From a virus, in the IMG/VR virus record IMGVR_UViG_3300031539_004785, positions 1 to 32,622 of that record: a stretch of DNA of 32,622 bases, one strand, 5' to 3'. Every line of letters starts with the position of its first letter. The first letter of the stretch is position 1. Shown one piece after another: positions 3,114-31,103 of this stretch. Position numbers and translations under genes: made by a program. The notes beneath the pieces were generated by a model. The model ran no database searches, was not told where the DNA came from, and was given only the letters and a program-made list of their open reading frames with translations.

Positions 3114-3310
3114 GTTTTTTCATTGTGACTAGAATCCCAAAGGTGACGCGTATGGCATATAAGACGCGGAGGACGGTCGGCTCTAGACGTTCCTCAAATC
3201 CCAATCGTTCGAGCGGGGAAGCGAGAACCCCCGATAGACCACGAAGTGGTAGAGGGGTGCAGCTACCGCCTGACACATGTGCACATAAGACATATGAGAC
3301 GCGGACATGA
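3110..3310 (+). CDS. Doubtful small Arg-rich ORF in an odd-composition insert
   Basis: This 66-codon frame overlaps the upstream stop and the downstream start by ATGA at both ends, as true neighbours here do. However, third-position GC is about half, well below the flanking genes. Rare AGA codons recur and the product is a low-complexity, very basic sequence (KTRRTVGSRRSSNPNRSSG). The DNA also holds hairpins at 3214-3233 and 3238-3250 and a palindrome at 3277-3286. It may be a recently gained basic peptide gene, or a structured non-coding segment that happens to stay open. No clear ribosome site is visible ahead of ATG 3110. Confidence 0.35.
   Translation: MSFFIVTRIPKVTRMAYKTRRTVGSRRSSNPNRSSGEARTPDRPRSGRGVQLPPDTCAHKTYETRT
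3156..3305 (+). repeat. Direct repeat pair bracketing a structured 120-base segment
   Basis: CATATAAGACGCGGA (3156-3170) and CATATGAGACGCGGA (3291-3305) match at 14 of 15 bases and lie 135 bases apart. Between them are CGGGG/CCCCG (3214-3233), ACCAC-GAA-GTGGT (3238-3250) and the self-complementary ATGTGCACAT (3277-3286). This arrangement could result from a small insertion with flanking duplication, or form an RNA structure ahead of the methyltransferase gene. No transposase or tRNA-like fold was found. Confidence 0.5.
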
Positions 3311-3984
3311 GCGATTCTTTGGGAATTATGTTGAAGCCATGGAGTATTGAACCTCCTTTCCAGCAAGAAACAAACTTCTCACCTTGGGGCCATCCGAATT
3401 GGTTATGCTGGAATGGTCATGCTGTCGAAGTACAAGTAGCCACATTCCTTTCCAGGTTGTCCTACGAGGTCTGTTCTTCTTCCGCCGATCCGTATCTCAT
3501 AGAGACGGGCGTCGGGCAGGGGTTCGTGACCAGGCGTGTTGTCGAGGCGATTCCAGAGACGGCACGCCTGGTGTGCTTCGAGTCTGACCACGAATGGCGT
3601 GAAGGTCTCAAGCGGCTCGACTTCTGGACCGACCATCTCAATGTCTGCATCAGGAACGAGATATTTCCCGACGAGGCCGATTTCCGTACCGCCGATCTTG
3701 TCATCCTCGACTCGAACGACCCGTGGAGGAAGATCGAGATCATGTTGTGGCAGGAACTTGCCCCGGAGGGCTCCATCATGTTCGTCCACGACACGGGCAC
3801 GATCCACCCGCCACACGATGGCCATTTCACGCTCGGGTTCCTCATCAAGCTGCTCGGTATTACCGGATACTGGCTGGAGAACCCTCGCGGGTCCTTCCTC
3901 GCACAGAAGGGGGTGACGCTTCCCGATGACCGATACAGGGCCCTGTGGGACTACACACTTGAAGATGTCTATACGTTCGGGTAG
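3307..3984 (+). CDS. Class I SAM-dependent methyltransferase
   Basis: This 225-residue protein starts at ATG 3307, with only a weak ribosome site (GAGACGCGGA). After a 60-residue aromatic-rich N-terminus comes a Rossmann-type motif I, 'LIETGVGQGFVTR' (about 64-76), then 'ARLVCFESDHEW' (motif II, acidic residue binding the ribose), 'TADLVILDSND' (motif IV) and 'LAPEGSIMFVHDTG' (motif V-VI). This order resembles the Methyltransf_24 group, which often methylates sugars or small molecules. Its position after an RmlC-type epimerase and before three glycosyltransferases suggests O-methylation of a sugar, by inference. The first 190 bases are only about 47 percent GC, lower than the rest of the gene, so the 5' part may have a different origin. 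Confidence 0.75.
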   Translation: MSDSLGIMLKPWSIEPPFQQETNFSPWGHPNWLCWNGHAVEVQVATFLSRLSYEVCSSSADPYLIETGVGQGFVTRRVVEAIPETARLVCFESDHEWREGLKRLDFWTDHLNVCIRNEIFPDEADFRTADLVILDSNDPWRKIEIMLWQELAPEGSIMFVHDTGTIHPPHDGHFTLGFLIKLLGITGYWLENPRGSFLAQKGVTLPDDRYRALWDYTLEDVYTFG

Positions 3985-6166: not shown

Positions 6167-6351
6167 ATCCGTGTAACCACTACGCCTACACCAGGCTCAG
6201 CGAGGCGCGGTGGGTGTACGGGACTCCTGGCATCATCTCCGCGCGCTACCGCTGCACTGACTGCGGCATGGAATGGGACGACCCGACCGAACTGCCCGAC
6301 ACGAGCCATGTGTGGAGCAAGGGCGGTCCCCGCGGAATGCACCCATCATGA
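6163..6351 (+). CDS. Small zinc-finger protein
   Basis: This is a 62-residue protein. The GTG at 6163 (GTGA overlap with the previous stop) is preferred over an in-frame TTG at 6157. The ligands are C4, H6, C31 and C34 (PCNHYAY and YRCTDCGMEW), which together make a likely single zinc site with a 24-residue loop. 'RYRCTDCGMEW' resembles a zinc-ribbon knuckle, as in HNH-linked or transcription-factor ribbons. The C-terminal part is polar and short (KGGPRGMHPS). It ends with an ATGA overlap with the first glycosyltransferase gene. Confidence 0.65.
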   Translation: MNPCNHYAYTRLSEARWVYGTPGIISARYRCTDCGMEWDDPTELPDTSHVWSKGGPRGMHPS

Positions 6352-7040
6352 AGGTCATTGTTGGCTGTCCCGTCTATGAGCGGGCATGGGTACTCGAAGC
6401 GTGGTTCGACGCCCTCGAAGGCTGGCGCAAACACGTAGACCTCAAGTTCCTCTTCGTCTACACCGACAGCGAAGACAAGACGCTCGACATCATCGAGAAG
6501 CGTGCCGGGAACCACCTCGTCTTTCCCTTCAACGAAGGCGACCACTCCAAGGAACGCAACTGGGGCGATCAGTCCCGTCTCGAAACGATGGCCGACATGA
6601 GGAACTTCCTCCTGAACCAGGTCAATCTCGACAAGCCAGACTTCTTCCTCTCCCTCGATTCCGACATCCTCGTCGCCCCGTGGGACCAGTCGAAGCAACT
6701 GTTCGACACCCAGTACGACGTTGTTGCTCCGCTCGTCTATCTCGGCGCTGGAGACATCGGGAACTCGTTCAACTTCCAGGGGGATCACCATCGGCGAATC
6801 TCGAAGAACCGTATGTACGGTGTCGAGCAGAGGGTCGATGTGGTTGCTGCGGCGAAGCTCATGAAGCCGCTCGCCTACAGGAACAGTCTCTACGGGTATG
6901 ACCGGTACGGCGAGGACTTCTACTGGGCGAAAGAGATGAAGCGCGCTGGTATCTCGCTTGCTCTCAACTCGAACGTCGTTTTCAAGCACATCATGACCCC
7001 CGACAAGCTCGACATGATTGACCTGAGGGTTGGCTGGTGA
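6348..7040 (+). CDS. GT-A-type glycosyltransferase 1
   Basis: This is a 230-residue protein. ATG 6348 overlaps the previous stop and starts directly at the first strand (MKVIVGCPVYERAWVLEAWF), so earlier in-frame starts are unlikely. The DxD motif is D104-S-D106 in 'FFLSLDSDILVAPW', which binds the metal and sugar nucleotide. 'AWVLEAWFDALEGWRKHVDLKFLFVYTDSEDKT' is the nucleotide-binding half, and 'RYGEDFYWAKEMKRAGI' near the end is the typical acceptor-side 'ED' segment. The length is short but complete for a phage enzyme. It should move a sugar from a nucleotide donor to an acceptor in the cytoplasm. The acceptor is unknown. The gene is GTGA-coupled to the next glycosyltransferase. Confidence 0.85.
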   Translation: MKVIVGCPVYERAWVLEAWFDALEGWRKHVDLKFLFVYTDSEDKTLDIIEKRAGNHLVFPFNEGDHSKERNWGDQSRLETMADMRNFLLNQVNLDKPDFFLSLDSDILVAPWDQSKQLFDTQYDVVAPLVYLGAGDIGNSFNFQGDHHRRISKNRMYGVEQRVDVVAAAKLMKPLAYRNSLYGYDRYGEDFYWAKEMKRAGISLALNSNVVFKHIMTPDKLDMIDLRVGW

Positions 7041-7864
7041 GCAACCGCAAGCGCGAAGAGCAGCTTGCCTTGGAGCGAATTCCGGTGGATTCCCCGAAGG
7101 CGAAGATTGCTGCCCTCGTCGTCAACTGGAACACCCCCGATGACGTCATCCGTCTCGTTGAGTCCGCCGAAGAGTGGGAACCGAACCTCCGGTGGTCCTT
7201 CTACCAGAACAAGCCCCCGGACGGTACCGGGACACCATGGCTGGAGGTCGTGAAGGGCCGTGCCAAGAGGGTCGTTATCCAGCGCGGTAAGGAGAACCAC
7301 GGGCACGGGTACGGCATCAACAGGGCCGCTGAAGTCGCCAGGGAATGGGATGTCGACTACTACTTCATCCTGAATCCCGACTGTCTGTTCACCAGCTCTA
7401 TTCTCGACAGGCTGGCGGGGTTCCTCGAAGAGAAGGAGGAACGCTGTGTGGTTGGCCCGAAGCAGTTGGACTCGGCTGGTCATATCACCGCAGGTGGGAT
7501 CATCGGCACGAGAGAGCAGCCGGTACACCGGTACTGGAAGGTACGTGACTTGGGTAATACGCTCGGTCGTGACGCCGTGAAGTGTCCAACCGTTGCAGGG
7601 TCGGCGATGCTCGTCCGTGCTGACGATTTCCATAAGTACGGCGGGTTGTTAGAGGCGAAGCACTACTACTCAGAGACGTGGTTTAACTACCACATACAGG
7701 CACATGGACGTGAATGTTGGTACCTCGGTGAGGTCACGATGATCCACGAATGGCATCGTTCGAGTAAGCTCGGTGCTCAGAGTACGGACGGTTCCATGAG
7801 GCAGGACCAAGAGCTGTTCAGGAGAATGTGCGACGAGCACGACCCACCGATATCGAGGGACTGA
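7037..7864 (+). CDS. GT2-type glycosyltransferase 2 (rhamnosyltransferase-like)
   Basis: This 275-residue protein starts at GTG 7037 (GTGA overlap). Characteristic GT2 features are 'IAALVVNWNTPDDVIRLVES' at residues 24-43, 'KENHGHGYGINRAAEVA' (about 85-101), and 'YYFILNPDCLFTSS' with D115 in the NPD position that replaces a strict DxD in many rhamnosyltransferase-like enzymes. 'AGSAMLVRADDFHKYGG' and 'ETWFNYHIQAHGRECWYLG' match the acceptor-side loop and the 'ED..' region of this class. It resembles the dTDP-L-rhamnose-using subgroup, which fits the RmlC-type gene at 2613, but donor identity cannot be fixed from sequence. It ends one base before the next gene. Confidence 0.85.
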   Translation: MSNRKREEQLALERIPVDSPKAKIAALVVNWNTPDDVIRLVESAEEWEPNLRWSFYQNKPPDGTGTPWLEVVKGRAKRVVIQRGKENHGHGYGINRAAEVAREWDVDYYFILNPDCLFTSSILDRLAGFLEEKEERCVVGPKQLDSAGHITAGGIIGTREQPVHRYWKVRDLGNTLGRDAVKCPTVAGSAMLVRADDFHKYGGLLEAKHYYSETWFNYHIQAHGRECWYLGEVTMIHEWHRSSKLGAQSTDGSMRQDQELFRRMCDEHDPPISRD

Positions 7865-8553: not shown

Positions 8554-9219
8554 TTGCCTGAGTTCACCGACGAAGAACTCCTCAGGATGATCGGTCCTGT
8601 TGATGATGACAATGTGGCGCTCATTTCTGTCGAGGGCAGTAGCGGCACCGAGTTCAACGTCATTACCGTCGAAGAGGCTGCGTGGTTCGACTCGACCGTT
8701 GAGCGCTATCACGACCAGTACGAATTCGAGAACATTGCCGACCTGCAGGACCTCGATCGCCTTACCGCGCTCGAACTCCTCTCGTACCGTTACGCGTCCT
8801 GGCTGATCCGTGAGGCCGACTATGACGGGAATCCGTTTGACGACAAGTCCGTGCGTGACCACAAGGTCAAGGTCGATAAGGAGATTCGTGACATCAAGAG
8901 CCACATGGGCCTTGGCAGGAAGTCACGCACCGAGTCGGAGCATCAGTCCGTAGCTGACTATCTCTCCGACCTTCTCGCCAGGGCGAAAGAGTTCGGCGTT
9001 CATCGTGACATGCAGAATGCCAAGTCACAGGACCTGTTCAACGAGTTGAAGAAACTCATCGGCCTCTACCGCAGGACAGACGAGGAGGAGCGCAAGCATC
9101 TCTCTGTCGACCTCCTCGACATCATCGACTGGATAGAGAAGGTTGCTATCCCCGAGTATGACGCCATCGACGAGAACTTCAGGAAACAGCAGAAGCTCTG
9201 GATACGGGATGTTGGCTGA
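8554..9219 (+). CDS. Unknown helical protein in small-terminase position
   Basis: TTG 8554 is chosen as start because the AAGGGGGG at 8541-8548 is the only good ribosome site. A TTG at 8527 would overlap the glycosyltransferase gene without one. The product has 221 residues: an acidic N-terminus (PEFTDEELLRMIGPVDDDN), then mostly helices including 'LTALELLSYRYASWLIREADYDG', 'KVDKEIRDIKSHMGLGRKSRTE', 'LFNELKKLIGLYRRTDEEER' and a final 'VDLLDIIDWIEKVAIPEYDAID'. It directly precedes the large terminase gene and overlaps it by one base, so a small terminase or terminase accessory role is the simplest reading. I see no clear HTH, so this rests on position. Confidence 0.6.
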   Translation: MPEFTDEELLRMIGPVDDDNVALISVEGSSGTEFNVITVEEAAWFDSTVERYHDQYEFENIADLQDLDRLTALELLSYRYASWLIREADYDGNPFDDKSVRDHKVKVDKEIRDIKSHMGLGRKSRTESEHQSVADYLSDLLARAKEFGVHRDMQNAKSQDLFNELKKLIGLYRRTDEEERKHLSVDLLDIIDWIEKVAIPEYDAIDENFRKQQKLWIRDVG

Positions 9220-10811
9220 TGGCTATCAGGCCCAAGGCGCAGGACCTGTCTGAGGAGGAGTGCTATCTCGTTGCGCTGATCCAGGACCACGCAGGGATCG
9301 ACCTTGCTGAGTTCTGCTGGGAAGACCCGATGGCCTACAACGACGAGAAGATTTTCCGTTGCTGGGACTTCCAGTATTCGTGGTGGCGTGACACCAGAAC
9401 GCAGGTGATCGACCAGTGCGGGCGTGCCATCGGGAAGACGCTTTCGATCATCCTGAGGGGGTGGGTGTTCGGCATCCAGCATCCAGGTGCTGAGATGGTG
9501 GTCACCGCCCCCGAGCTGGTCCATCTTCAGCCCCTGACTTCGCGCATCGAGGACCGCATCAAGGAGACGAGGCTCACCCGTGAACTGCTTCCGAAGCGGA
9601 CTGGCAGGGGTTTCAAGCACCGCCCGTTCCAGGTCGACTTCACGAACGGGGCGAAGATTCTCGGCAGAATCCCGCAGCGTGACGGCAAAGGCGTGAAGGG
9701 GCTTCACCCGTTGCAGCTAGAGCAGGACGAAAGCCAGGACTATCCGCAGGCCGGGTGGATCGAGCTGGTCGAGACGTTGCGTCACGGCGAGGAGGGCGCA
9801 CAGTGGCGTGCACACGGGGTGTCCAAGGGTGTTCATGACGAGTTCTATCGCCATTCACAGCCCGGGTCGGGGTGGTCTGTCCATCGCTTGACCGGTATGC
9901 ACCGTCCGACCTGGTCTGACAAGGAACGCACCGAGAAGATCGAGGCGTACGGGTCGAGGGACAGTGCCGACTACAAGCGGAACATCCTCGGGCTGCATGG
10001 CGATGCCACGAACCCGCTGTTTGTATTGAACAGGCTCATGGCTACCGTCGATGATCGTATTGAGTCCGAATACAACACGGATATCTACTACTACCGTCGC
10101 ATCAACGACGACCACCTCATTAACACAACGATTGAGATGCTTGTTGACTTTCCTGGCTCACACAAACAGTGGAAGACGACCTGGGCCGGGATGGACGTTG
10201 GTATGACGAACCACCCGTCCGAGATTCTCGTCTTCGGTGAGGAGCCATTCGGTCGTACGAAGGTCGCGTTGCGTCTCCTCACGCGTCTCAACCTCCAACG
10301 GATCACAGCCTCCGACCAACGCAAAGTCGTGAAGATGATCTTCGCTGCGTACAACCCGAGACGATTCACGATAGACCGCGGTGGTCTCGGCCTTCCCATC
10401 TATCAGGACCTCCTTGAAGAGCTTCCCGAAGCCAAGGGGAGGATCATCGGGTACACGGCGGACCAGAAGCTCCTCGTCGGGTATCACGACCACGAACCCG
10501 AAGACAACCCAGCCGACTTCGAGATTCATGCCCGTGCCAAGGAGTACGGCTATGACAAGCTCCGTGAATATGTCGACTCGAAGCGCTTCTTCCTTCCCTG
10601 GGACCAGGAGTTCCTCGGTGAATGGCAGGGTTCCACCTGGTATCGGGAGCGTTCAGAGACGAACCCATACGGGAAGAAGACGTTCAACCGTGGACAGTTC
10701 CATACTTTGGACGCTGCGGCGATGATGATTGTCGGCAAAGAGCTCCTCACGCTTGACACTCTCATCAACATGCGTTCTAAGCACGAGGTAGTGCCTCTGA
10801 TGTTCGCTTAG
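9219..10811 (+). CDS. terL: Terminase large subunit (TerL)
   Basis: This is a 530-residue DNA packaging motor ATPase and nuclease. The ATPase part has a Walker A-like 'CGRAIGKT' at residues 67-74 (K73) and a Walker B-like 'LQLEQDE' at 165-171. The coupling region follows around 'HGVSKGVHDEFYRHSQPG'. The nuclease part has D326 in 'WAGMDVGM', D386 in 'FTIDRGGLG' and D498 in 'HTLDAAAMMIVG', the three acidic metal ligands of the RNase H-like fold. The length is typical of the family. It is at the head of the packaging and capsid genes, after the small-terminase-position gene, and before the portal. The packaging mode (cos or headful) cannot be read from the window. Confidence 0.93.
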   Translation: MAIRPKAQDLSEEECYLVALIQDHAGIDLAEFCWEDPMAYNDEKIFRCWDFQYSWWRDTRTQVIDQCGRAIGKTLSIILRGWVFGIQHPGAEMVVTAPELVHLQPLTSRIEDRIKETRLTRELLPKRTGRGFKHRPFQVDFTNGAKILGRIPQRDGKGVKGLHPLQLEQDESQDYPQAGWIELVETLRHGEEGAQWRAHGVSKGVHDEFYRHSQPGSGWSVHRLTGMHRPTWSDKERTEKIEAYGSRDSADYKRNILGLHGDATNPLFVLNRLMATVDDRIESEYNTDIYYYRRINDDHLINTTIEMLVDFPGSHKQWKTTWAGMDVGMTNHPSEILVFGEEPFGRTKVALRLLTRLNLQRITASDQRKVVKMIFAAYNPRRFTIDRGGLGLPIYQDLLEELPEAKGRIIGYTADQKLLVGYHDHEPEDNPADFEIHARAKEYGYDKLREYVDSKRFFLPWDQEFLGEWQGSTWYRERSETNPYGKKTFNRGQFHTLDAAAMMIVGKELLTLDTLINMRSKHEVVPLMFA

Positions 10812-20571: not shown

Positions 20572-20843
20572 TCTCGTCGTTCTGGCCAGAAGGTATCGAA
20601 CGCGCCCCGTGGAATCTCGTGGTGGCCGTCAACATGGGCCTTCAGGTGATAGGCTGGTTCGAGAACTTGCCGAGGAAAGAGCAACCGCCTCGCTCCATAT
20701 GGTGGAGCGACAAGCTGCTAGATAAATGGTTCAAGAACGTCGAGAGTGACCGTAACGCGAAGACGGGCAAGCGTTCTTCGTATGACGAGGCAGATGACGT
20801 TCCGATGATGTCGAATGAACTAGCAGAAGGGTTGCGACCGTAA
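20511..20843 (+). CDS. Tail assembly chaperone, -1 frame extension (gpT-like)
   Basis: This frame is read after the -1 slip at 20505-20511, adding 110 residues to the first 274 of the short form, so the fusion has about 384 residues. It has no good start codon or ribosome site of its own. The extension begins LAQSPHFLGLIRAVKGLGG and continues 'EGIERAPWNLVVAVNMGLQVIGWFENLP', then a charged end 'NELAEGLRP'. In lambda the equivalent gpGT extension binds the tail-tube protein. The 'RAPWNLVVAVN' stretch is hydrophobic enough for an interaction helix. The stop TAA 20841-20843 overlaps the tape measure ATG by one base. Confidence 0.8.
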   Translation, partial: LAQSPHFLGLIRAVKGLGGDFSSFWPEGIERAPWNLVVAVNMGLQVIGWFENLPRKEQPPRSIWWSDKLLDKWFKNVESDRNAKTGKRSSYDEADDVPMMSNELAEGLRP

Positions 20844-23800
20844 TGGCTACTCCTGCGATTGTCTGGCGATCCGACGCTACTGCTGTTCTCGCCGACCAGC
20901 TCAAAATCCTCGAAAACCTCAAGCGCATCCAGGAGCAGGGGGCGAATCTCGGCGGTCCCTCTGGCGCTAACACGATCCTCGATGTCGACAAGATGTCGAA
21001 GGCCTATAAGAGCAGTAGCGACCAGATCGTCAAGGAGATCGAACGTCAGCAGGCGGCCATCGCCATGCTTGACGATGTGCAGCGGAAGTACGCTAAGGGC
21101 GGCAAGGCGGCTGCAGAGCAGTTCGTTACTGGCCGTGCTGGCCAGCACTTGGCTTCGGTTCTCGGGATGGGCGAGGTAAGCGACCTCAAGCAGGTGAGGC
21201 CACCCTCACCGTACAATCCGAGAATTGGCCCCAACCTTCCTGGCCCAAGGGGGTCCGAGGCCCTTAAGCAGGCTGCAGAACTTGCGCGCAAGGAGATAGA
21301 GAAGCTCGACGGGGCTCTCGTTCAACTGAACGAGACTGCTCACGCGCAATCATTGGAGACGGCGAAGCAGCTTGATCCGGCCCTTTACGCCGAGATGAAC
21401 CGTCTCGTTCTTCAGCGTGGCGACTACGAGCGTCGAGCGGCCAAGATTACTGGCGGCGAGGCGGTCAACGAAGTCCTTCGCGACCGCATGGGGATGCTCA
21501 GGGAGGAGCTCAAGCTTCTCGAAAGCCAGCGCTCTGCGTTGGTTGCCAATGCGAAGACTCAGTTGGCACCGAAGCAGCAGAGGATGGTCTCCTCAGCCCA
21601 GGCCAACATAGATGCCGAGGCCAAGGCGGCTGATGGTCTGTCTGCGGCGTACAAGGAGATCGACAGAATCTTCGAGCAGTCCGGGTTGGCTCGTGCCAAG
21701 CAATCCGCGATGCGTACCGGCCTTTCCAACAAGGACGCGAAGGTAGTCGGCGACGTCATCAAGAACATTCAGAGTGTCAACCCACAGGCTGCTGCTCAGC
21801 TAGAGACGCAGATCGGCCTGGTCGAGAAGTACGGGAAAGCGTTCGCCGATGCTAACGCTCCTCAGAAGGAGGGGGGTGGCCTGCAGAAGAGCATTCAGGA
21901 GGCCATTGGTGCTGATCCTGCACTCGCCCACCTTACGGAGCAGATCGACAACGTCAAGAAGGCGATGGTCGAGACCACCACCGCGTCGACGGAGACGTTG
22001 TTCCCGGGCATAGAGGACGACATCAGGCGGCTTGCCGAGATCGAACGGAAACTGTCTCGGATCAAGAATCTGCAGAGCGCGGAGGCTCAGAGGCTCCAGG
22101 CCGAGAGGGAGGACGTCACCAACCAGGCGCAGACGAAGATAGCGTCTGGTCAGGCTACCTTCGCCGCGACTCAGCCACTGTCGCCGGACCAGATGATGGC
22201 CGAACTGTCGAGGCAGCTTCCCATACTAGAGAGGACCTTCGTGCAGGTCTTCTCGGACATGCAGCGACGGTTCATCGCTACGTTCCAGTTTGCCATTTCG
22301 GGTGCGTTGATCTTCGGCACGGTCAAGATGGTCAAGGAGTTCTACCAGACCGCCGTCGAAGTCGAACGTGCGTTCGCCGATATCGAGTCAGCACTTGAGT
22401 TCGATATAGCCGAGCCGCGTGGTAGTGCTGCGTTTAAGTCACAGGTCGAAGGGGTGAGGCAGGAGGTACTTAAGCTCGCAGCAGAGTTCAACGTACTCCC
22501 GACTGAGGCTAACAAGTCTGCGTTTGTCATGATTTCGCGCTTTACCGACATGGGTAACGCCATGAAGGCTACGCGGGCACAGCTTCTCGCCGTGAAGGTG
22601 TCGACCATCGACCAGTCGGAGACGTTGCGTGCCCTAACCGCGGTGTCCGAAGGGTTTGCTGCCGTACAGCTTGAGGTGAACGAAGGACTGAACCTCCAAG
22701 AGAGGCTCATGGCGAAAGAGGCAGCTTCAGCCGAACTGTACGGGAAGGCTCTCGACCTTGCTGTCACCATTCAACAGAAGTTCGGTGTCGAGGTGGAGGA
22801 CACGCTCGAAGGTACGGCCCGTGCCACCGAGGTTTTCCGGCAAATGGGCTTCACGATGGAGGAGACTGCTGCCATCGTGGCGTCAACATCACGCCAGTTG
22901 GGGCAGACAGGTCAGCAAGCCGCTGAGCGCCTCGTCCGCTCTCTCGGACAGTTGACCGACCCGAAGATTCGGGATGCCCTCCTCGATCTTGCGGCAGGGA
23001 GCACCGAGTTCTCGCTTGGTATCAGTGACTTTGAGTCTGGAGCGAAGGCGTGGGAGACGATTACCAGGCAGTTCTCACGCCTGGAAGGTTCGGCACCGGA
23101 CGTAGCTCGCGCGATTCTTCAGATCGTCGGCCAGCGTCGTGAGTTGGAGGCAGTTGCTGCTGCTCTTGGCACGAACGACCTTCAGAGGGAGATGCTTGTT
23201 GCTGCCGAATCGGCGGCAGGCGCTGCGGAGACCAGGTTCAGTTACTTGAGCCAGACCGTGGCCGAGATGATGAATTCGATCAGGACTGGCTTCCAGGAGA
23301 TGGCCCAGAACTTCGAGAGGCTTGGTGGTCTTCAGACCATGAAGCTTCTGTTGAAGGGTGTCGATAACTTCGTTGGTGCATTGAATACGGCACTCAAGTT
23401 GGTAATCGACTTTGTTCACTGGATGGACAGGTTCACCCTTCTCGGAAGGGGGATCGGATCAATGGCAACACAGATTGCTGCCGTAACCCTTGCTGCTTAT
23501 GGACTTCTGCGTGTTGCTATAGCGCTCCAGAAGACGTTCCTTCTACTGTCCGGTAGCGCCGGTATAGCGAAGCTGGCCGCTGCGATGTCGGTGACTCAAG
23601 GGGTCTCAGTCGGTGCGGCTGCGGGTGCTGGTGGTGGGCTGGCGGCTCCCATAGCTGCTGGCTTCGGGGCAAGGATGGGGGCGTTCGCCGTAGCAGCCGG
23701 TAAAGGCACCACCGCGATGCTCGGCATGATTCCGGTGTGGGGATGGATGGCCGCTGCGGTAATTGGTACCGGCCTGGCGATCAACAGCGTGAAGGAGCGA

Positions 23801-26179
23801 TCCGAAAGGCTTAGTACGTCATTCGAGGAAGGCTCCGCAAACGTCATCAAGGCCACGCACGAGGCTCGTCGCAGGATACGCGAAGAGGGGCTTGTAGGCC
23901 TTGAGGCCAGGGAATTCTCGCAACAGTCGCTTGTTGATGCCCTGACGGCTGCCACAACGGCATCCCAGAGTGGTTCGCCGTCGAATGTCGAGTTCATTGG
24001 TGCGTACTTGAAGGACCTCGTCTCCGTCATCAACCTACCCACGGAGACGGCAAGGTGGGCTGTAGGCTTGGGCGGCCTCAGTCCTGCTGACAACTGGAGG
24101 CAGCAGAGTCTCGTGGGTATGGGGCAGGCCAGGGCGCATCCTGAGCTTGAGGAAGGGGCTAGTGAGCTGTGGCAGGACCTTACCGACAAGGCTATGGCAT
24201 CCCTCGTCGACACGCAGAAGGAAGCCATCTCCAGGGAGATGGCTGGTTTTAATTTCGACGAGGTCGATCTTGCTTCGCTCAGCAAGATGGACATGTACGA
24301 CCTCACGAGCCTAGTTCCTTCGTACGGGAAGGGGGCCTTCGACCCGAAGAGTGTACAGGCCGACGTTCTGCGGATGTATGCGGACTCTGCCCAGGCGTAC
24401 GCCGACGACCTGCCCGAAAAGGGTGCCCTCCTCGCCTATCTGGCTGCGGAGAAATGGGACATGTTCCTCGCCATCCTTGGCAAGCTCCCGGCCAACATGA
24501 CGAAGTCGATGACGGGCCTTTCGACTGAGCTTGCAGGGCTCGACACCAAGGTGGCGCTTGGCCAGATGACCGCAGAAGAGGCGATAGCTGCGAAGTTGCG
24601 AATCGCCCAGGAAATGGAGGATCAGGCCAGGAAAGCCCAGATTCAGTGGCCGAACATGAAGGAAGAGTGGACGCAGTGGTTCCAGGATGCGGCAGACGCC
24701 CAACTGGAAGGAATGCGTGCGGCAATAGCCGAACTGAGCTTCCAGCAAGACACCGGTGGTGATTACGGCGAGGGGACCAAAGAGCGCCTGGAGCGGCAGA
24801 TCGCCCAGTTCGAGGAAAGCAGCGTTGCGGACCCCGAAAATTATCAAGAAAAAACGTATGGGGATTTCAGGGGAGCACCGGCGACTACTGGGGTGATGGC
24901 GATTCCGCCAGAGGTCCAGGCGAAATGGGACGAAAACGAAGAAAGGATTCGTGAGCTTGCCGAAAACGAAATCCTTACTGCGATCACGGTCGCCGAACAT
25001 GCCGTGGCTATGGCGGAAGGTCTCGACGCGGAAGAGGCTGCCGCAGCGCAGCTTAACGAGGCTTTTGCTGCTGCTATTGCCCTGTATGAGGCGTGGGGCA
25101 ACAGTGAAGAAAAGGTGTCCGAATACGTACGCCGGATCGAGTCCAACAACAAGAAGTCCAAGGCGGATGGTGCTGCCGATGCCAGGAGGCTGGCCGAAGC
25201 ACGCGTCAGGATGAGTGGAAAAATTCTCGACCCGATCCTTGCGATACAGGCGACTATCGCCGGTATTCGTGCCGAACTCGCTGCCGGTGGGCTAGAGGCG
25301 GGTGAAGCCCTCGCTCTCCAGGTTGAACTAAACGAAGCGATCGCTCACGAAGCCCAGGCCCAGCAGGAGAAGATTCGTGCGTATGGTGAGTCGCAGATCA
25401 GCGTCCGCAACTCGGTGAAGCAGAACCAGTTCGAGTTGACGATGCTGGCCCGTGAGTTGGCGTTGACGGCTGAACTGTTCGGCAGGGGGTCGGTTGAATG
25501 GTCGAACGTCAAGAAGGCCATGGAAAACATGAAGGCCGCCCTCATGGATCAGGCCCTCGAACTCGAATCAATCAACCGCATGTTGGCCCCGGGCGTCGAC
25601 CTCACCGACGCCTATCAGAAGTCTCAGCTTGCCCTGATAGACGCGATCCAACAGCAGAAGGCCGTGTATGCAGACCTGGATGCTGGCGACTTGGAGAAGG
25701 CACGAGCCGATCTGGCGGTGGCTGAGGCTACGATCGCTGACCAGGCTGCCTTTGCCCAGGATCGCCTGTTCACTATGAAGTTCGACTACGACCGCGGTGC
25801 CATCTCGAAGGGTCAGTACATCGCTTCACTCAAGAAGTACTTGTCCGAGATCGACACCACGAGTCGTGCCGGTAAGGAGCTATGGAGCGAGATCAACGGG
25901 CTGATCGAAGGCATGACCGGTGACCTCAGTGACATGCAGTTCAACATTCCCGGCGAGATCAGGCTGCCGACCCTGTTCGAGGTGCGGCGTGCGTTGACTG
26001 CGGATGCCCTGGGTGTGAACTATCAGGACAACCGAACGCAGGACATCCGCATCTATGTCGACAGTGACGTGGATGTGGCAAAGGTAGCGAATGCCGTGAA
26101 CGAAGGTCTTGGCTCCCAGGCAGCCACTGCCTCTGCACGCTACGCTCCTGGTTCAGCGACATTGACGTTGGGAGTGTGA
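20843..26179 (+). CDS. Tape measure protein
   Basis: This 1778-residue protein starts at ATG 20843 (overlap with the chaperone stop). It is overwhelmingly helical and Ala/Glu/Gln/Lys-rich, with three hydrophobic segments at about 477-495 (FIATFQFAISGALIFGTVKM), 875-895 (TQIAAVTLAAYGLLRVAIAL) and 961-985 (GMIPVWGWMAAAVIGTGLAI). The 'VKMVKEFYQTAVEVERAFADIESAL' stretch after the first is typical of tape measures. A Gly/Ala-rich section near 915-955 and a second long coiled region (1260-1670) follow. It sets tail length and enters the host envelope with DNA. At about 0.15 nm per residue, it predicts a tail near 260-270 nm, an estimate only. I see no peptidase or lysozyme motif inside it. Confidence 0.93.
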   Translation: MATPAIVWRSDATAVLADQLKILENLKRIQEQGANLGGPSGANTILDVDKMSKAYKSSSDQIVKEIERQQAAIAMLDDVQRKYAKGGKAAAEQFVTGRAGQHLASVLGMGEVSDLKQVRPPSPYNPRIGPNLPGPRGSEALKQAAELARKEIEKLDGALVQLNETAHAQSLETAKQLDPALYAEMNRLVLQRGDYERRAAKITGGEAVNEVLRDRMGMLREELKLLESQRSALVANAKTQLAPKQQRMVSSAQANIDAEAKAADGLSAAYKEIDRIFEQSGLARAKQSAMRTGLSNKDAKVVGDVIKNIQSVNPQAAAQLETQIGLVEKYGKAFADANAPQKEGGGLQKSIQEAIGADPALAHLTEQIDNVKKAMVETTTASTETLFPGIEDDIRRLAEIERKLSRIKNLQSAEAQRLQAEREDVTNQAQTKIASGQATFAATQPLSPDQMMAELSRQLPILERTFVQVFSDMQRRFIATFQFAISGALIFGTVKMVKEFYQTAVEVERAFADIESALEFDIAEPRGSAAFKSQVEGVRQEVLKLAAEFNVLPTEANKSAFVMISRFTDMGNAMKATRAQLLAVKVSTIDQSETLRALTAVSEGFAAVQLEVNEGLNLQERLMAKEAASAELYGKALDLAVTIQQKFGVEVEDTLEGTARATEVFRQMGFTMEETAAIVASTSRQLGQTGQQAAERLVRSLGQLTDPKIRDALLDLAAGSTEFSLGISDFESGAKAWETITRQFSRLEGSAPDVARAILQIVGQRRELEAVAAALGTNDLQREMLVAAESAAGAAETRFSYLSQTVAEMMNSIRTGFQEMAQNFERLGGLQTMKLLLKGVDNFVGALNTALKLVIDFVHWMDRFTLLGRGIGSMATQIAAVTLAAYGLLRVAIALQKTFLLLSGSAGIAKLAAAMSVTQGVSVGAAAGAGGGLAAPIAAGFGARMGAFAVAAGKGTTAMLGMIPVWGWMAAAVIGTGLAINSVKERSERLSTSFEEGSANVIKATHEARRRIREEGLVGLEAREFSQQSLVDALTAATTASQSGSPSNVEFIGAYLKDLVSVINLPTETARWAVGLGGLSPADNWRQQSLVGMGQARAHPELEEGASELWQDLTDKAMASLVDTQKEAISREMAGFNFDEVDLASLSKMDMYDLTSLVPSYGKGAFDPKSVQADVLRMYADSAQAYADDLPEKGALLAYLAAEKWDMFLAILGKLPANMTKSMTGLSTELAGLDTKVALGQMTAEEAIAAKLRIAQEMEDQARKAQIQWPNMKEEWTQWFQDAADAQLEGMRAAIAELSFQQDTGGDYGEGTKERLERQIAQFEESSVADPENYQEKTYGDFRGAPATTGVMAIPPEVQAKWDENEERIRELAENEILTAITVAEHAVAMAEGLDAEEAAAAQLNEAFAAAIALYEAWGNSEEKVSEYVRRIESNNKKSKADGAADARRLAEARVRMSGKILDPILAIQATIAGIRAELAAGGLEAGEALALQVELNEAIAHEAQAQQEKIRAYGESQISVRNSVKQNQFELTMLARELALTAELFGRGSVEWSNVKKAMENMKAALMDQALELESINRMLAPGVDLTDAYQKSQLALIDAIQQQKAVYADLDAGDLEKARADLAVAEATIADQAAFAQDRLFTMKFDYDRGAISKGQYIASLKKYLSEIDTTSRAGKELWSEINGLIEGMTGDLSDMQFNIPGEIRLPTLFEVRRALTADALGVNYQDNRTQDIRIYVDSDVDVAKVANAVNEGLGSQAATASARYAPGSATLTLGV

Positions 26180-26180
26180 C

Positions 26181-26558
26181 ATGGCGCAGTGGAAACTGAC
26201 CGACTATTCGACCGGTGCTGCGGTTGATTACGTGTTCCCGATCAACCCGAACGAGTTCAGTCATCCCGACTATAAGCCCACGGTCAAGAACGAACAGACG
26301 GTCTCTACGTCCGGTTCTACCGTGATGTTCATGGGAAGGCCAGAGCTGTCTTCCATCCAGTTTTCGGGCTCTATCAGGACCGAGCAGCAGTACACCGACA
26401 TGAATACGTGGTTTAGGAAATGGAATCCGCTTGTGTTGACTGACGATCAGGGCAGTACGTGGTCGATCATCGTTACGGGTTACCAACCCAAGAGACGAAG
26501 GAAAGCGAATAACCAGTGGCTGTTCGACTACAGCGTCGATGCCAACGTAGTGGAGTGA
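26181..26558 (+). CDS. Distal-tail-like or tail-tip protein
   Basis: This 125-residue protein starts at ATG 26181, one base after the tape measure stop region; GGGAGTG is the weak ribosome site. The sequence has the layout of a short phage tail-tip family: an N-terminal 'FPINPNEFSHPDYKPTVKNEQTVSTSGSTVMFMGRPELSSIQFSGSI', then 'QQYTDMNTWFRKWNPLVLTDDQGSTWSIIVTGYQPK' and a final 'WLFDYSVDANVV' strand. It matches the single-domain form, short of full Dit (250 residues), that connects tail tube and hub. The gene order tape measure, this, hub supports it. Confidence 0.7.
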   Translation: MAQWKLTDYSTGAAVDYVFPINPNEFSHPDYKPTVKNEQTVSTSGSTVMFMGRPELSSIQFSGSIRTEQQYTDMNTWFRKWNPLVLTDDQGSTWSIIVTGYQPKRRRKANNQWLFDYSVDANVVE

Positions 26559-26559
26559 C

Positions 26560-29500
26560 ATGAGGAACGTACCTGGAGAGATGTGGTATACCTGGGAGCA
26601 GGGAAACTTCCTGGGTAGTAACCGTCCGATTACGAGAGCAACGATCTCGAAGACAGTCCTTGAGACTGTCGGGGGCGGGAACTTCCGGACGCTGTTCTTC
26701 GGTAACCGTGTCGGGGAGTACGAGATACCGAACATCCGTACCTGCGCGATTGACCGGAGGCTCGGTACCGACGCTGCCTCGATGACCCTCTCGTTCCTTA
26801 ACGCCAGCCGTGTCAACGTTCAGGAGAACCTTGACCAGACCTACCTTGAGGCCGCGGGGGGTGACGCTGGCGGGCCGACGAAGCGTGAACTCATGGAGTT
26901 TGGCTCTCCTGGTGGGTTCACGTACCGTCGTGGCGTGGCGAACACGGGGGACGGGTCGCCGAACCCGTGGGCACACGCAGCAGACCCGACGTGGGTTGAT
27001 ATGTTCGTCCCGAACAGGGTCATCAAGACCTTCCAGGGGTACGGGACCGACAATGCGAGCTATCCGTGGGACGACACGAAGCTTGTGCAGACCGGCGTGT
27101 GGCTGATCGACAAGGTAGAGATGGGTGCGGATGGCATCATTACCCTGACGTGTCGTGACCCTGCGAAGTTGCTGATCGAGCAGCGTCTCTACCCACCGAT
27201 CGTCCCATTGGATTCCTATCAGCTCAACATCTGTGGGCCGTACAAGAAGGTCAACTTCGAGACAACGGAGGGTACGACGACGACGACGCCGACACCGGAA
27301 ACCATCGGTGTCGACGTTGCAGTCCAGTCGAACAGCCGGTACGACTCGTCGACCGCCTATTACAGCATCAGTGTCTATGGGCACATAACTGCTCATGCTT
27401 TCGATGGTGACGAGACGACCTGGTGGGCGTCGATGCGGAACTCCCAGCCCTCATACGACTGGTCGTATGAGTGGATCGACGCCGCCTGCAACCGGGAGCC
27501 GATCAGGCGTGTCCGGTTCAAGCCCTGGAAGGGCGGGTACACGTGTTACGTGGGTGTCATGGTTGCCGGGGTGTGGCAGGGCACCGCAACGGTCCCCTAC
27601 AACCGGTATGCGAAACCGGCAGCTCCGAACGATTCCGACATCAAGTACCTGAAGAAGATCAACGTACCTTCAGGTGAAGGATGGGTCACGGTCGATCTTG
27701 ACGAGCATTACAACGCCGACTTCGTGCGACTCGTCTTTACTGACCTCCAGGACTTCAGTGGAATTTCCGGAAGGACCGACGGTGACTATCGAGCGGGCGT
27801 GTACGAAGTCCAGTGCATGGCGTATACGCCTGCGTCCACGAAGACGGTCACCACCAACGAGACCACCGAGGAGATCGTCGTCAACGAAGAGGGGAACATC
27901 GACGACTACACGGACATCATCAAGCTGTTCCTTGCGTGGTCGGGTTTCTACTGGCCGAAGGGCAGGCTCGACGGCGGCATCGCGGGCGATTCCGATCCGC
28001 TGTTCCTGCGGGACATCTGGGGTGCGGAGGGTGGAAGGGTCTGGGGAGACTTCTTCAACAGCGGTGCCTACCCGATAGAGCCGCCGTGTATCCCGTCCGA
28101 ATACTGGGACAACAAGTCGGTCCAGGACGGCATCAACCAGATCAAAGAGATTCTCGGGTTCATCGGATATGTTGACGCGACGGGTGGCTTTGTGTGGCGT
28201 CCCCCGAACATCTGGAAGACCGGCAACTTCGTGTCCGGTATGGGATATCAGGGAGCGACGTCGATTCCGATCATCACCGAAGAGAACGTCCTTCTCGACT
28301 TTGGTGTGACTGTCGATGACGCAGCTCTGAGGTCCGAAATTATCGTCGTCCAGAAGGACCCCGACCCTGAAGGGTCGATGGTCTGGGGTTCGTTTGTGCC
28401 CGACTGGGCTGGGGAGGGATATCCACAGACCTCCGAGGGACAGGCCGGACAGACATCTGATCTATCTCTCCTTGCGGGGCAGGTCCGTTCCATGCTCGTT
28501 GCGGATTATCCGTTCGGGCAGGACCTCGACGATGAGGAGAAGGCACGAGCCGAGGTCAACAAGTTCGCCTATCTCGTCGCCTTGTGGATTCACTGGTCCT
28601 ACCGGAAGACCAAGTTCCGCATCCCCGCGATGCCTGCCCTGGAGCCGGACGACCAGGTGCAAATCTTCGAGCGGATCACGTCGGAGACCTACATTCACTA
28701 TCTGTTGGGTGTCAATTCAGTCATGGACATGGATGCAGGCACCTACTACATGGATGTGGATACGCACTGGTTGGGGAACGGTCCCGACAAGGAATGGCAC
28801 GTTAGTGCTGCCTCTATGTCTCCGGCCTTGTTCGCCTACCTCGTTGCGGCGGGGCTGATCCTTGATCCGAAGGATGCGGATGCGGACTACACGTATCCGG
28901 ACGACTATTTCAAGTACACCCCACCGACACCACCCGAGGGCCTACCGAGGGTCGCTGACGACTACGAGTGGCTGTTCCCTGACCTTCCCGACTGGGTGTG
29001 GCCTGCGTGGGATTGGGACGGTGAGTCGATTGCCAACGACGACCCGTACGTCGAGCCGCCTGCCGAGTCCGGTAGTGGCGGGATTGTGGCGAATTGCACA
29101 AACTCCCATGCCTTCGCATATTGGCCCGGGTCTGGGCCGAGGTCGATTCATGCGATACCTCCGAACTGTGCTGGCGGGTATCAGTCGAGACGCTGGTTTT
29201 TCGGAGCTAGCGGCTCTGGGAGTCACGCAGTGGTCGATGACAGGGCGTGGCTTGCGTTCCGTGCGATGTGTCTCATCATGCAGGATGAGGGCTATGTGAT
29301 CAACACGGCTTCTGGCTATGTATGCCGGTACGTGTCTGGAACGAGCACGTGGAGCAACCATGCGTGGGGGCTTGCGGTTGACATTAACGGTTCAAGTCTT
29401 GGTCGCAAGAAGACAACCGATTCGACGCTTTTGAGGGTTGGGAATCGTGTCACGAATATCAGGGCCTACGATTCGCAGAACAGGGCCGACATTCCGGTGT

Positions 29501-29619
29501 TCAAGTGGGGCCAGTACTTCTCGAACCCCGACCCCATGCACTGGCAGGTGTGCTGCGGGCCAGCGGACATTGCTCGTGGCCTGTACATTCCCGGGATGCC
29601 TGGCGGTGGTCCCATTTGA
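26560..29619 (+). CDS. Tail hub/minor tail protein with discoidin-like and M15 peptidase domains
   Basis: This 1019-residue protein starts at ATG 26560 behind GGAG. The N-terminal 240 residues are hub-like with strands ('RTLFFGNRVGEYEIPNIRTCAIDRRLG'). A Thr/Pro linker (TTEGTTTTTPTPE, near 240-250) leads to a domain at about 257-422 with a discoidin/F5-8C pattern (AHAFDGDETTWWAS, RVRFKPWKGG, VTVDLDEHYNADFVRLVF), expected to bind sugar or surface. The centre resembles further tail structural domains. The C-terminal part has 'SNHAWGLAVDIN' (H934, D941) and 'DPMHWQ' (D991, H994), the metal and catalytic signature of M15 (VanY/endolysin-like) peptidases, so it probably cleaves peptidoglycan peptides at the tail tip during entry. 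The motif spacing is right, but activity is inferred. Confidence 0.8.
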   Translation: MRNVPGEMWYTWEQGNFLGSNRPITRATISKTVLETVGGGNFRTLFFGNRVGEYEIPNIRTCAIDRRLGTDAASMTLSFLNASRVNVQENLDQTYLEAAGGDAGGPTKRELMEFGSPGGFTYRRGVANTGDGSPNPWAHAADPTWVDMFVPNRVIKTFQGYGTDNASYPWDDTKLVQTGVWLIDKVEMGADGIITLTCRDPAKLLIEQRLYPPIVPLDSYQLNICGPYKKVNFETTEGTTTTTPTPETIGVDVAVQSNSRYDSSTAYYSISVYGHITAHAFDGDETTWWASMRNSQPSYDWSYEWIDAACNREPIRRVRFKPWKGGYTCYVGVMVAGVWQGTATVPYNRYAKPAAPNDSDIKYLKKINVPSGEGWVTVDLDEHYNADFVRLVFTDLQDFSGISGRTDGDYRAGVYEVQCMAYTPASTKTVTTNETTEEIVVNEEGNIDDYTDIIKLFLAWSGFYWPKGRLDGGIAGDSDPLFLRDIWGAEGGRVWGDFFNSGAYPIEPPCIPSEYWDNKSVQDGINQIKEILGFIGYVDATGGFVWRPPNIWKTGNFVSGMGYQGATSIPIITEENVLLDFGVTVDDAALRSEIIVVQKDPDPEGSMVWGSFVPDWAGEGYPQTSEGQAGQTSDLSLLAGQVRSMLVADYPFGQDLDDEEKARAEVNKFAYLVALWIHWSYRKTKFRIPAMPALEPDDQVQIFERITSETYIHYLLGVNSVMDMDAGTYYMDVDTHWLGNGPDKEWHVSAASMSPALFAYLVAAGLILDPKDADADYTYPDDYFKYTPPTPPEGLPRVADDYEWLFPDLPDWVWPAWDWDGESIANDDPYVEPPAESGSGGIVANCTNSHAFAYWPGSGPRSIHAIPPNCAGGYQSRRWFFGASGSGSHAVVDDRAWLAFRAMCLIMQDEGYVINTASGYVCRYVSGTSTWSNHAWGLAVDINGSSLGRKKTTDSTLLRVGNRVTNIRAYDSQNRADIPVFKWGQYFSNPDPMHWQVCCGPADIARGLYIPGMPGGGPI

Positions 29620-31103
29620 GACGTCTCGACCCCCTCTCTAAGGCGAAGCCCCGGGAGCTTGACCGGAAGATGTGGGCCGATGTTGATCGGCTCATGTACG
29701 AGTTTCAGGCGAAGGGCAGGGGTGAGTACCTGTTCGAGGACCCGATCTTCTTCGGCACGGCGTTCGGTTCCCCTCCGACGCTGTCGTATTCGTCGATCAC
29801 GGACGGTTCGGGTCCGCCCGTGATCCCGTTCCGCACGGTCCCCCCGAGGCTCTACCGGAAAAACATTGACAGCAACCATCTTGGCAACCATTCGATGGGC
29901 ACGAACAACACGATCCTGGACCCAGGTTTTGAGGTGCAGGGACAGTTCATTCCGCTGTTGGGTGACGATGCGCGGTACATCCCCGTGACTTCAGATTCAC
30001 CAAAGTCGTGGGAGTACTTCGATAATGATATTCCTCTGGGAGAATGGCCAGAAGCCCGAGAGCCTCGGTATATTGGCCCTCCTGGCGAGTACGACTTCTG
30101 GAATCACTGGCCGAGTACCGTCTTCGCCGCGTGGCATAAGGGCGGATACGAGCCTGCGCCAAACTTGTACGGTGATCGTGAACCATTGGATGGCACGAAC
30201 AGTTGGATACAGACTGGCGAGACTGAGGGACGTTGGGCGATCACCAACGAGAAGTCGCACGACTACGGAGTCGGTGCCAAGGGGGAGTATTCAGCCAAGT
30301 ACACGTTCGTCGAGGACGGTTCGAGCAACTGGATGATCCCGCTGGGATGGATGTCCGGGTGGCCGGAATGGCTGTCTTTCGACTATCCCGACAAAGCCCA
30401 TTGGGGGTTCTTTTCCTTGCAGTCGTGGGGCGACAATTCCTATGGGGGGGCAACTGCCATTCCGCCGATACTTCCCGGATGGGAGGGCACGGCTGCCGTA
30501 TGGTCCGACGAGGACTGTGAGTTCGAGGCGTGGAACTACAACTGGTGGGACACCGAAGGGTTCGAGGGGTCCGAACCTATGGAATACGGCTTTTGGGATG
30601 AGAGGTATTGGGACTACATCCCGATGCCGATGTCGTATGACGATCCGACGCCGATGCATGATTCCGACGCGTGGTTCGACTACTGGAGTGACCGGTATGA
30701 CCCCCCTAGGTGGGTCGAGCAGTCACGGACCTGGATCACCTGCCATATGGGTAGTAGCGAGACGGTGAAGGTCCCGATTGTGGGCGGGAAATGGAACGAC
30801 GTATCGTACTACCTTCCGCGCGGGAAGAACCAGTGGCAGCTACCTAATCACCCGCCAGGTCACCCGCTCAACTTGAGTGGTCCCGGATGGCAGCAGGAGA
30901 CGTTCCGGTTCCGTATCAATAACGGCTCTCCTGGGCAGGTTGTCTATCTCGACAATGTGTATGTCTGGCCTGATATCAGGAATATCTATGTTCCGATGGT
31001 GACGATCGGTGTTGCCGAATGGGTGGTTGACGAGCAGGGTGCCTACATCGGTGCGAAGCTCTGGATCAAGGTCGGCGAACCCTCAGATGATGGGAGGGGC
31101 TGA
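29616..31103 (+). CDS. Trp-rich tail protein with CBM4/9-like domain
   Basis: This is a 495-residue protein. TTG 29616 (TTGA overlap with the hub stop) is chosen; an earlier in-frame ATG at 29505 would overlap the hub by 115 bases. A polar N-terminus (LDPLSKAKPRELDRKMW) is followed by 'TILDPGFEVQGQF', a signature of carbohydrate-binding modules of the CBM4/9 jelly-roll type, ending at 'FRFRINNGSPGQVVYLDNVYVWPD'. By my count it contains about 31 Trp (6 percent), many in clusters such as 'PLGWMSGWPEWLSF' and 'EAWNYNWWDTEG'. This suggests sugar-stacking surfaces. A distal tail or receptor-binding role follows from position after the hub, and its sugar target is unknown. It overlaps the next gene by one base. 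Confidence 0.7.
   Translation: MRRLDPLSKAKPRELDRKMWADVDRLMYEFQAKGRGEYLFEDPIFFGTAFGSPPTLSYSSITDGSGPPVIPFRTVPPRLYRKNIDSNHLGNHSMGTNNTILDPGFEVQGQFIPLLGDDARYIPVTSDSPKSWEYFDNDIPLGEWPEAREPRYIGPPGEYDFWNHWPSTVFAAWHKGGYEPAPNLYGDREPLDGTNSWIQTGETEGRWAITNEKSHDYGVGAKGEYSAKYTFVEDGSSNWMIPLGWMSGWPEWLSFDYPDKAHWGFFSLQSWGDNSYGGATAIPPILPGWEGTAAVWSDEDCEFEAWNYNWWDTEGFEGSEPMEYGFWDERYWDYIPMPMSYDDPTPMHDSDAWFDYWSDRYDPPRWVEQSRTWITCHMGSSETVKVPIVGGKWNDVSYYLPRGKNQWQLPNHPPGHPLNLSGPGWQQETFRFRINNGSPGQVVYLDNVYVWPDIRNIYVPMVTIGVAEWVVDEQGAYIGAKLWIKVGEPSDDGRG

Follow-up and report, generated by a model that had tools for sequence, protein, structure and literature searches.

Phage tail hubs with inserted carbohydrate-binding modules (CBMs) and hubs with C-terminal peptidases are both already known. 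In the 'evolved Tals' of Gram-positive siphophages, the central hub has CBMs inserted in its structural N-terminal part (PMC7291167), and Tal2009, from the lactococcal phage Tuc2009, ends in an M23 peptidoglycan peptidase for wall penetration (PMC6115969). Likewise, the baseplate hubs Gp189 of Deep-Blue and Gp110 of Vp4 carry a C-terminal NlpC/P60 peptidase, assessed as an ectolysin (PMC11406892). Roseophage R4C has a related layout, in which a baseplate protein harbours a nested carbohydrate-binding domain and the peptidase is separate (PMC10276861).

We analysed a 32,622-base virus record from IMG/VR, hereafter the window, which encodes a putative tail hub (tail-associated lysin, Tal) with a nested discoidin-like domain and a C-terminal M15 peptidase domain. 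As in evolved Tals, the hub lies directly downstream of the tape measure and of the Dit position and contains a nested binding-type domain, but the insert is of the discoidin/CBM32 type and the hub family has no detectable relation to solved hubs (PMC7291167). It shares with Tal2009 a C-terminal domain of the peptidoglycan peptidase type, whereas that of Tal2009 is an M23 peptidase and a nested discoidin is not described there (PMC6115969). Deep-Blue and Vp4, in contrast, are myophages that use NlpC/P60 and whose CBMs are described on other proteins (PMC11406892). We did not find the association of a nested discoidin and an M15 domain in one hub in the open-access literature. The first-pass annotation had judged this combination of domains uncommon, which is correct for the exact pairing and for the protein family, but not for CBM-inserted or peptidase-ended hubs, which are established.

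The genomic context is that of a tail gene cluster, with all genes on the + strand. A tape measure protein of 1778 aa (20843-26179; phrog_167 tape measure, E 3.3e-6), whose length indicates that the phage is probably long-tailed, is followed by a 125-aa tail protein (26181-26558), conserved in position and sequence in relatives, and then by the hub gene, whose ATG at 26560 adjoins the stop of the 125-aa protein, with its last base at 26558. The 125-aa protein retrieved no match in family or PDB searches, so that it is designated Dit by position only. The hub stop overlaps a likely TTG start of the next tail-region gene (29616-31103) in a TTGA tetranucleotide at 29616-29619, with a parallel GTGA overlap in the related contig L002 at 9087-9090. 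A listed start of that gene at 29505 is spurious, since the frame had been read from its earliest potential start codon, and TTG 29616 is likelier. Related loci repeat the same order; between an ORF of tape-measure size and the hub they have a few smaller ORFs or, in most cases, just one, of about 125-160 aa, although contig L003 stops short of the tape measure.

The hub ORF (26560-29619, +) encodes 1019 aa from the ATG at 26560 to a TGA at 29617-29619, with no internal stops, and the corresponding frame of the opposite strand is interrupted by stops. Its annotation as a tail hub or Tal is based on the ORF itself, on the alignment of 14 homologues and on the gene order of the locus. Hub part 1 (aa 1-225; 26560-27234) is kept in all 15 family members, with 52-83% identity among the first four, and is followed by a Thr-rich linker (aa 228-246; 27241-27297) with eight Thr in 19 residues. 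The nested discoidin/F5-8 type C/CBM32-like domain comes next (aa about 246-426; 27295-27837), as identified by AF2, Foldseek and PDB profile matches, and then a linker rich in Thr and Glu by composition (aa 424-445; 27829-27894). Hub part 2 (aa 445-745; 27892-28794) is the most conserved segment, with 62-89% identity among the first four members. A fast-evolving linker (aa 746-844; 28795-29091), with 14 Pro and 14 Asp in 99 residues, leads to the M15 zinc peptidase domain (aa 845-1010; 29092-29589). The domains proposed initially thus agree with the evidence, but the discoidin does not come after the hub, because the alignment nests it inside the hub, with part 2 downstream; and, instead of the single Thr/Pro linker that had been described, two Thr-rich linkers flank the discoidin and a Pro/Asp-rich one precedes the M15 domain.

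Single-sequence searches of the complete hub protein against PDB and NCBIfam gave no match, and an AF2 model of the full-length protein from a three-sequence alignment reached a pLDDT of only 27. Likewise, comparisons of the hub core with PDB, including the gp27-like fold, yielded no credible match. Two distant relatives, phage GX15bay (5.7e-5) and L021 (1.6e-4), match the family phrog_1887 'tail protein' in hub part 2; this family is recovered with some of the distant relatives only, and the window protein does not match it. A candidate assignment of the core to Sipho_Gp37 (mycobacteriophage D29 gp28-type) was discarded, as its hhalign probability of 0.1% was the same as that of shuffled controls. 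The hub call therefore derives mainly from the position after the tape measure, plus a weak family match. Indeed, the gene directly follows the tape measure and the Dit-position gene, as expected of a Tal, and the sequence includes an M15 domain corresponding to an optional feature of Tals, a C-terminal peptidoglycan hydrolase. A hub fold for the core (residues 1-225 and 445-745) is what we infer from these data, and it is the weakest structural step.

The hub belongs to a family of 15 distinct members that includes, besides the window protein, those from environmental contigs L002, L003, L007, L018, L019, L020, L021, L025, L028, L030, L032, L033 and L034, and from phage GX15bay; L031, a near-identical copy of L032, was left out of the count. 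Pattern-plus-tblastn scans of viral contigs retrieved L002 and L003, from one metagenome, with 81% and 59% identity to the window hub over the whole protein, respectively, and the other contig members came from scans in which the queries were the peptidase domain, the insert and the alignment as it grew. GX15bay is an environmental phage from mangrove soil (MK557849), whose hub (QBQ74878) shows 28-31% identity in the hub family and was the only match among 50,697 phage records scanned for hub relatives. GX15bay resembles the window hub in belonging to the same family and in having a nested discoidin segment, but it lacks M15 and carries GYW/GDA repeats instead. No hub relative emerged when 84,980 genomes of bacteria and archaea were scanned twice with short peptide patterns, a method that can miss relatives, and hence we assign neither a prophage nor a host.

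A segment at the position of the nested discoidin occurs in all 15 members, very divergent in L034 and GX15bay, whereas the C-terminal M15 domain is present in eight (the window, L002, L003, L007, L018, L019, L020 and L025) and absent from the other seven (L021, L028, L030, L032, L033, L034 and GX15bay). The existence of relatives without M15, among which the proteins of L021, L028 and L034 terminate after the hub, indicates that the hub family can dispense with the peptidase. In a tree built with the hub parts only, the eight M15 bearers are on one side of a branch with support 99/99, so that a single event, either a gain of M15 by this lineage or its loss in the others, is enough to explain its distribution. 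Comparison with the nearest relative, L002, gave dN/dS values of 0.09 for the discoidin, 0.14 for M15, 0.07-0.10 for the hub parts and 0.23, the highest of any segment, for the Pro/Asp-rich linker (Nei-Gojobori; values are approximate because dS is about 1). All segments of the protein are under purifying selection. These values (0.07-0.23) and the conservation of the architecture in seven further contigs, down to 48% identity, indicate that this architecture is beyond chance.

Our preferred reading, to which we give a probability of about 75%, is that the protein is a Tal-like central hub that docks on a surface glycan and opens the peptidoglycan locally at entry. The two hub parts would form the structural core closing the tail tube, from which the discoidin/CBM32-type domain, by means of the two Thr-rich linkers, would be displayed outward, probably to bind a glycan of the surface or wall. 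The Pro/Asp-rich segment would act as a flexible tether for the zinc-dependent M15 peptidase, which would cut stem peptides of the peptidoglycan locally under the engaging tail tip, and the local cut would let the tape measure and the DNA pass. The first-pass annotation had suggested docking and local wall cleavage, and this idea fits the evidence, with binding and cutting as predicted activities. The hub fold, glycan binding, catalysis, timing and host are parts of the scheme that we infer, and oligomeric state, binding, cutting and timing are taken by analogy from known Tal systems (PMC7291167, PMC6115969, PMC11406892).

The discoidin assignment depends on fold and not on a sequence profile, since the curated Pfam cut-off is not reached: the window region gave a sub-threshold E of 0.67 in a single-sequence Pfam search, and the best match in the family (E 4.5e-4) scored 21.2 bits versus a cut-off of 27.8. 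When the insert sequences of 14 members were made into a profile and searched against PDB, the matches were weak and to discoidin-type domains only, comprising five entries of chitosanase/glucanase modules (E 0.06-0.07) and the C-terminal domain of a chitobiase (3f2z, E 0.98). On the same 14-member alignment, AF2 modelled the segment with a pLDDT of 81.3 and a pTM of 0.83, and the top Foldseek match of the model was the chitosan-binding discoidin module of the Paenibacillus IK-5 chitosanase (4zxe; E 2.9e-6, 16-17% identity), followed by many domains of the CBM32 and F5/8 C types (probability 1.00, TM 0.5-0.7). The likeness to 4zxe is at the fold level, and the window domain differs from that module in being inserted in a phage hub. 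The model thus gives residues 246-426 a galactose-binding-like beta-sandwich of the discoidin/CBM32 type and, as a fold, the initial discoidin/F5-8C-like identification, the least secure of the first-pass calls, stands. Going by this model, the domain probably binds a cell-surface or cell-wall glycan.

Nevertheless, the discoidin could be structural, contacting other hub copies or neighbouring tail proteins with no binding of sugar. It occurs in all 15 members, whatever their C-terminus, as would be expected of a structural element, and such folds also mediate protein contacts, with XRCC1, netrin and laminin among the Foldseek matches. However, the domain is flanked by Thr-rich linkers and, in distant pairs, has diverged more quickly than the hub (31-36% versus 52-65% identity with L007); it also accommodates a plugged-in LysM module in two relatives, and has chitosan- and galactose-binding modules as its nearest folds. 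We thus regard a structural role as unlikely, although it is the strongest of the alternatives.

The SxHxxGxAxD...DxxHW signature reported for the C-terminus was confirmed as SNHAWGLAVD (932-941) and DPMHW (991-995), with H934, D941 and H994 exactly where they had been placed; the corresponding codons start at 29359 (H934), 29380 (D941), 29530 (D991) and 29539 (H994). Residues 927-996 match Peptidase_M15_4 (PF13539) with an E of 4.7e-7 and 30.7 bits, over the curated cut-off of 25, which is also exceeded in all eight M15-bearing members. H934, D941, D991 and H994 are invariant in these eight hubs, and from the sequence we predict that H934, D941 and H994 are zinc ligands and that D991 is the catalytic base. 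A profile of the eight C-terminal domains retrieved four enzymes from PDB, the best being 2vo9 (Ply500, named L-alanyl-D-glutamate peptidase; E 0.002), and the others, at E about 0.1, being ChiX, a peptidoglycan L-alanyl-D-glutamate endopeptidase (CwlK-type) and LysB4; we take ChiX and LysB4 to share the L-alanyl-D-glutamate specificity. In the alignment with 2vo9, H934, D941, D991 and H994 fall on chain residues H92, D99, D142 and H145. With a chain offset of 12, these correspond to the published zinc ligands H80, D87 and H133, and acid D130, of Ply500. The domain thus resembles Ply500 and M15-type endolysins in its SxHxxGxAxD...DxxHF/W zinc peptidase signature with aligned ligands, but these enzymes are free, whereas the window M15 is fused to a tail hub.

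Since the PDB profile matches are L-Ala-D-Glu endopeptidase-type enzymes, the M15 domain is most likely, on these alignments, an L-Ala-D-Glu endopeptidase and not a D,D-carboxypeptidase. A carboxypeptidase trimming the terminal D-Ala, with the same role at entry, would agree with the name of PF13539 (D-alanyl-D-alanine carboxypeptidase) and with a weak additional match of one relative to VanY. Yet, besides the endopeptidase-type profile matches, such trimming would leave the wall mesh closed, and endolysins with the same domain need an endo-cut, all of which makes this alternative improbable.

M15 might also serve host lysis, or processing late in infection, instead of entry, because the same domain family forms free endolysins in other phages and because we found no other lysin within the window, which is possibly incomplete. 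Likewise, searches of the 15 records, possibly fragments, for other lysin types (Amidase_2, M23, CHAP and GH25) found none. However, the window M15 is fused to a tail hub in a tail gene cluster, and the same phage that encodes the L003 hub has its own, separate 273-aa M15 + PG_binding_1 protein (L035:3199-4020, -), a probable endolysin from its domains, so that the hub M15 of L003 need not serve lysis. From these sequences, a distinct lysis enzyme appears to be retained by at least one such phage, and we consider a late role of the hub peptidase very improbable. The motif of the 273-aa protein, SLHAVAGGIAMD, has two extra residues between His and Asp, and a tree of M15 domains was poorly resolved as to whether the hub and endolysin copies of one phage could be direct paralogues. 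D29 gp29, considered as a parallel stand-alone M15 protein, was a wrong candidate, as it belongs to Phage_gene29. Finally, that M15 is an inactive remnant acting as a wall-binding module is hardly credible, in spite of the several relatives without M15 and of a divergence faster than that of the hub in distant pairs (33-42% versus 52-72% identity; 33-37% for the peptidase with L007, the most distant of the first four members), because none of the four active-site residues varies among the eight bearers and the dN/dS is 0.14.

Docking and local opening of the wall at entry, our preferred reading, would physically join both functions in one tail-hub polypeptide. A broader and rather doubtful extension of it is that the hub is a chassis whose discoidin acts as a glycan sensor, straining the Thr-rich linkers so that the hub opens and the tethered peptidase is released, with lineages swapping wall modules (M15, LysM, propeller-like repeats) to match envelopes. 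The lineage is almost absent from described phages, with GX15bay, itself environmental, as its one representative in the phage records, and the family offers a natural comparison, eight members with M15 and seven without, of what a hub-borne peptidase adds to entry. Being small, the domains could be tested directly in isolated form as a wall-binding module and a lysin.

Other features of the window and of its relatives deserve mention. The large terminase of the window (9219-10811) had no match in Pfam at E 0.01, and its identity is 41.6% with the GX15bay terminase and 25.7% with a Microcystis phage MACPNOA1 gene, a sequence comparison that points to an isolated lineage. Upstream of the terminase there are a Methyltransf_24 gene and two glycosyltransferase-like genes (a weak Anp1 and Glycos_transf_2), at 3307-3984 and 6273-7864, possibly for modification of the virion or of DNA. 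The GX15bay hub (L001:9983-13897, QBQ74878.1) contains two sets of GYW/GDA repeats, one after the discoidin segment and one at the end; it was deposited as 'glycoside hydrolase family 25', a domain that our Pfam search did not recover. In L030, an intein-like Hint domain (PT-HINT, E 9.1e-8) interrupts part 2 of the 1123-aa hub (L030:6001-9372). In L032 (6718-7458; E 1.9e-8) and L033 (6733-7473; E 1.6e-10), as well as in L031, a LysM lies inside the discoidin segment, and these proteins thus show three nested levels, a LysM in a discoidin in a hub.
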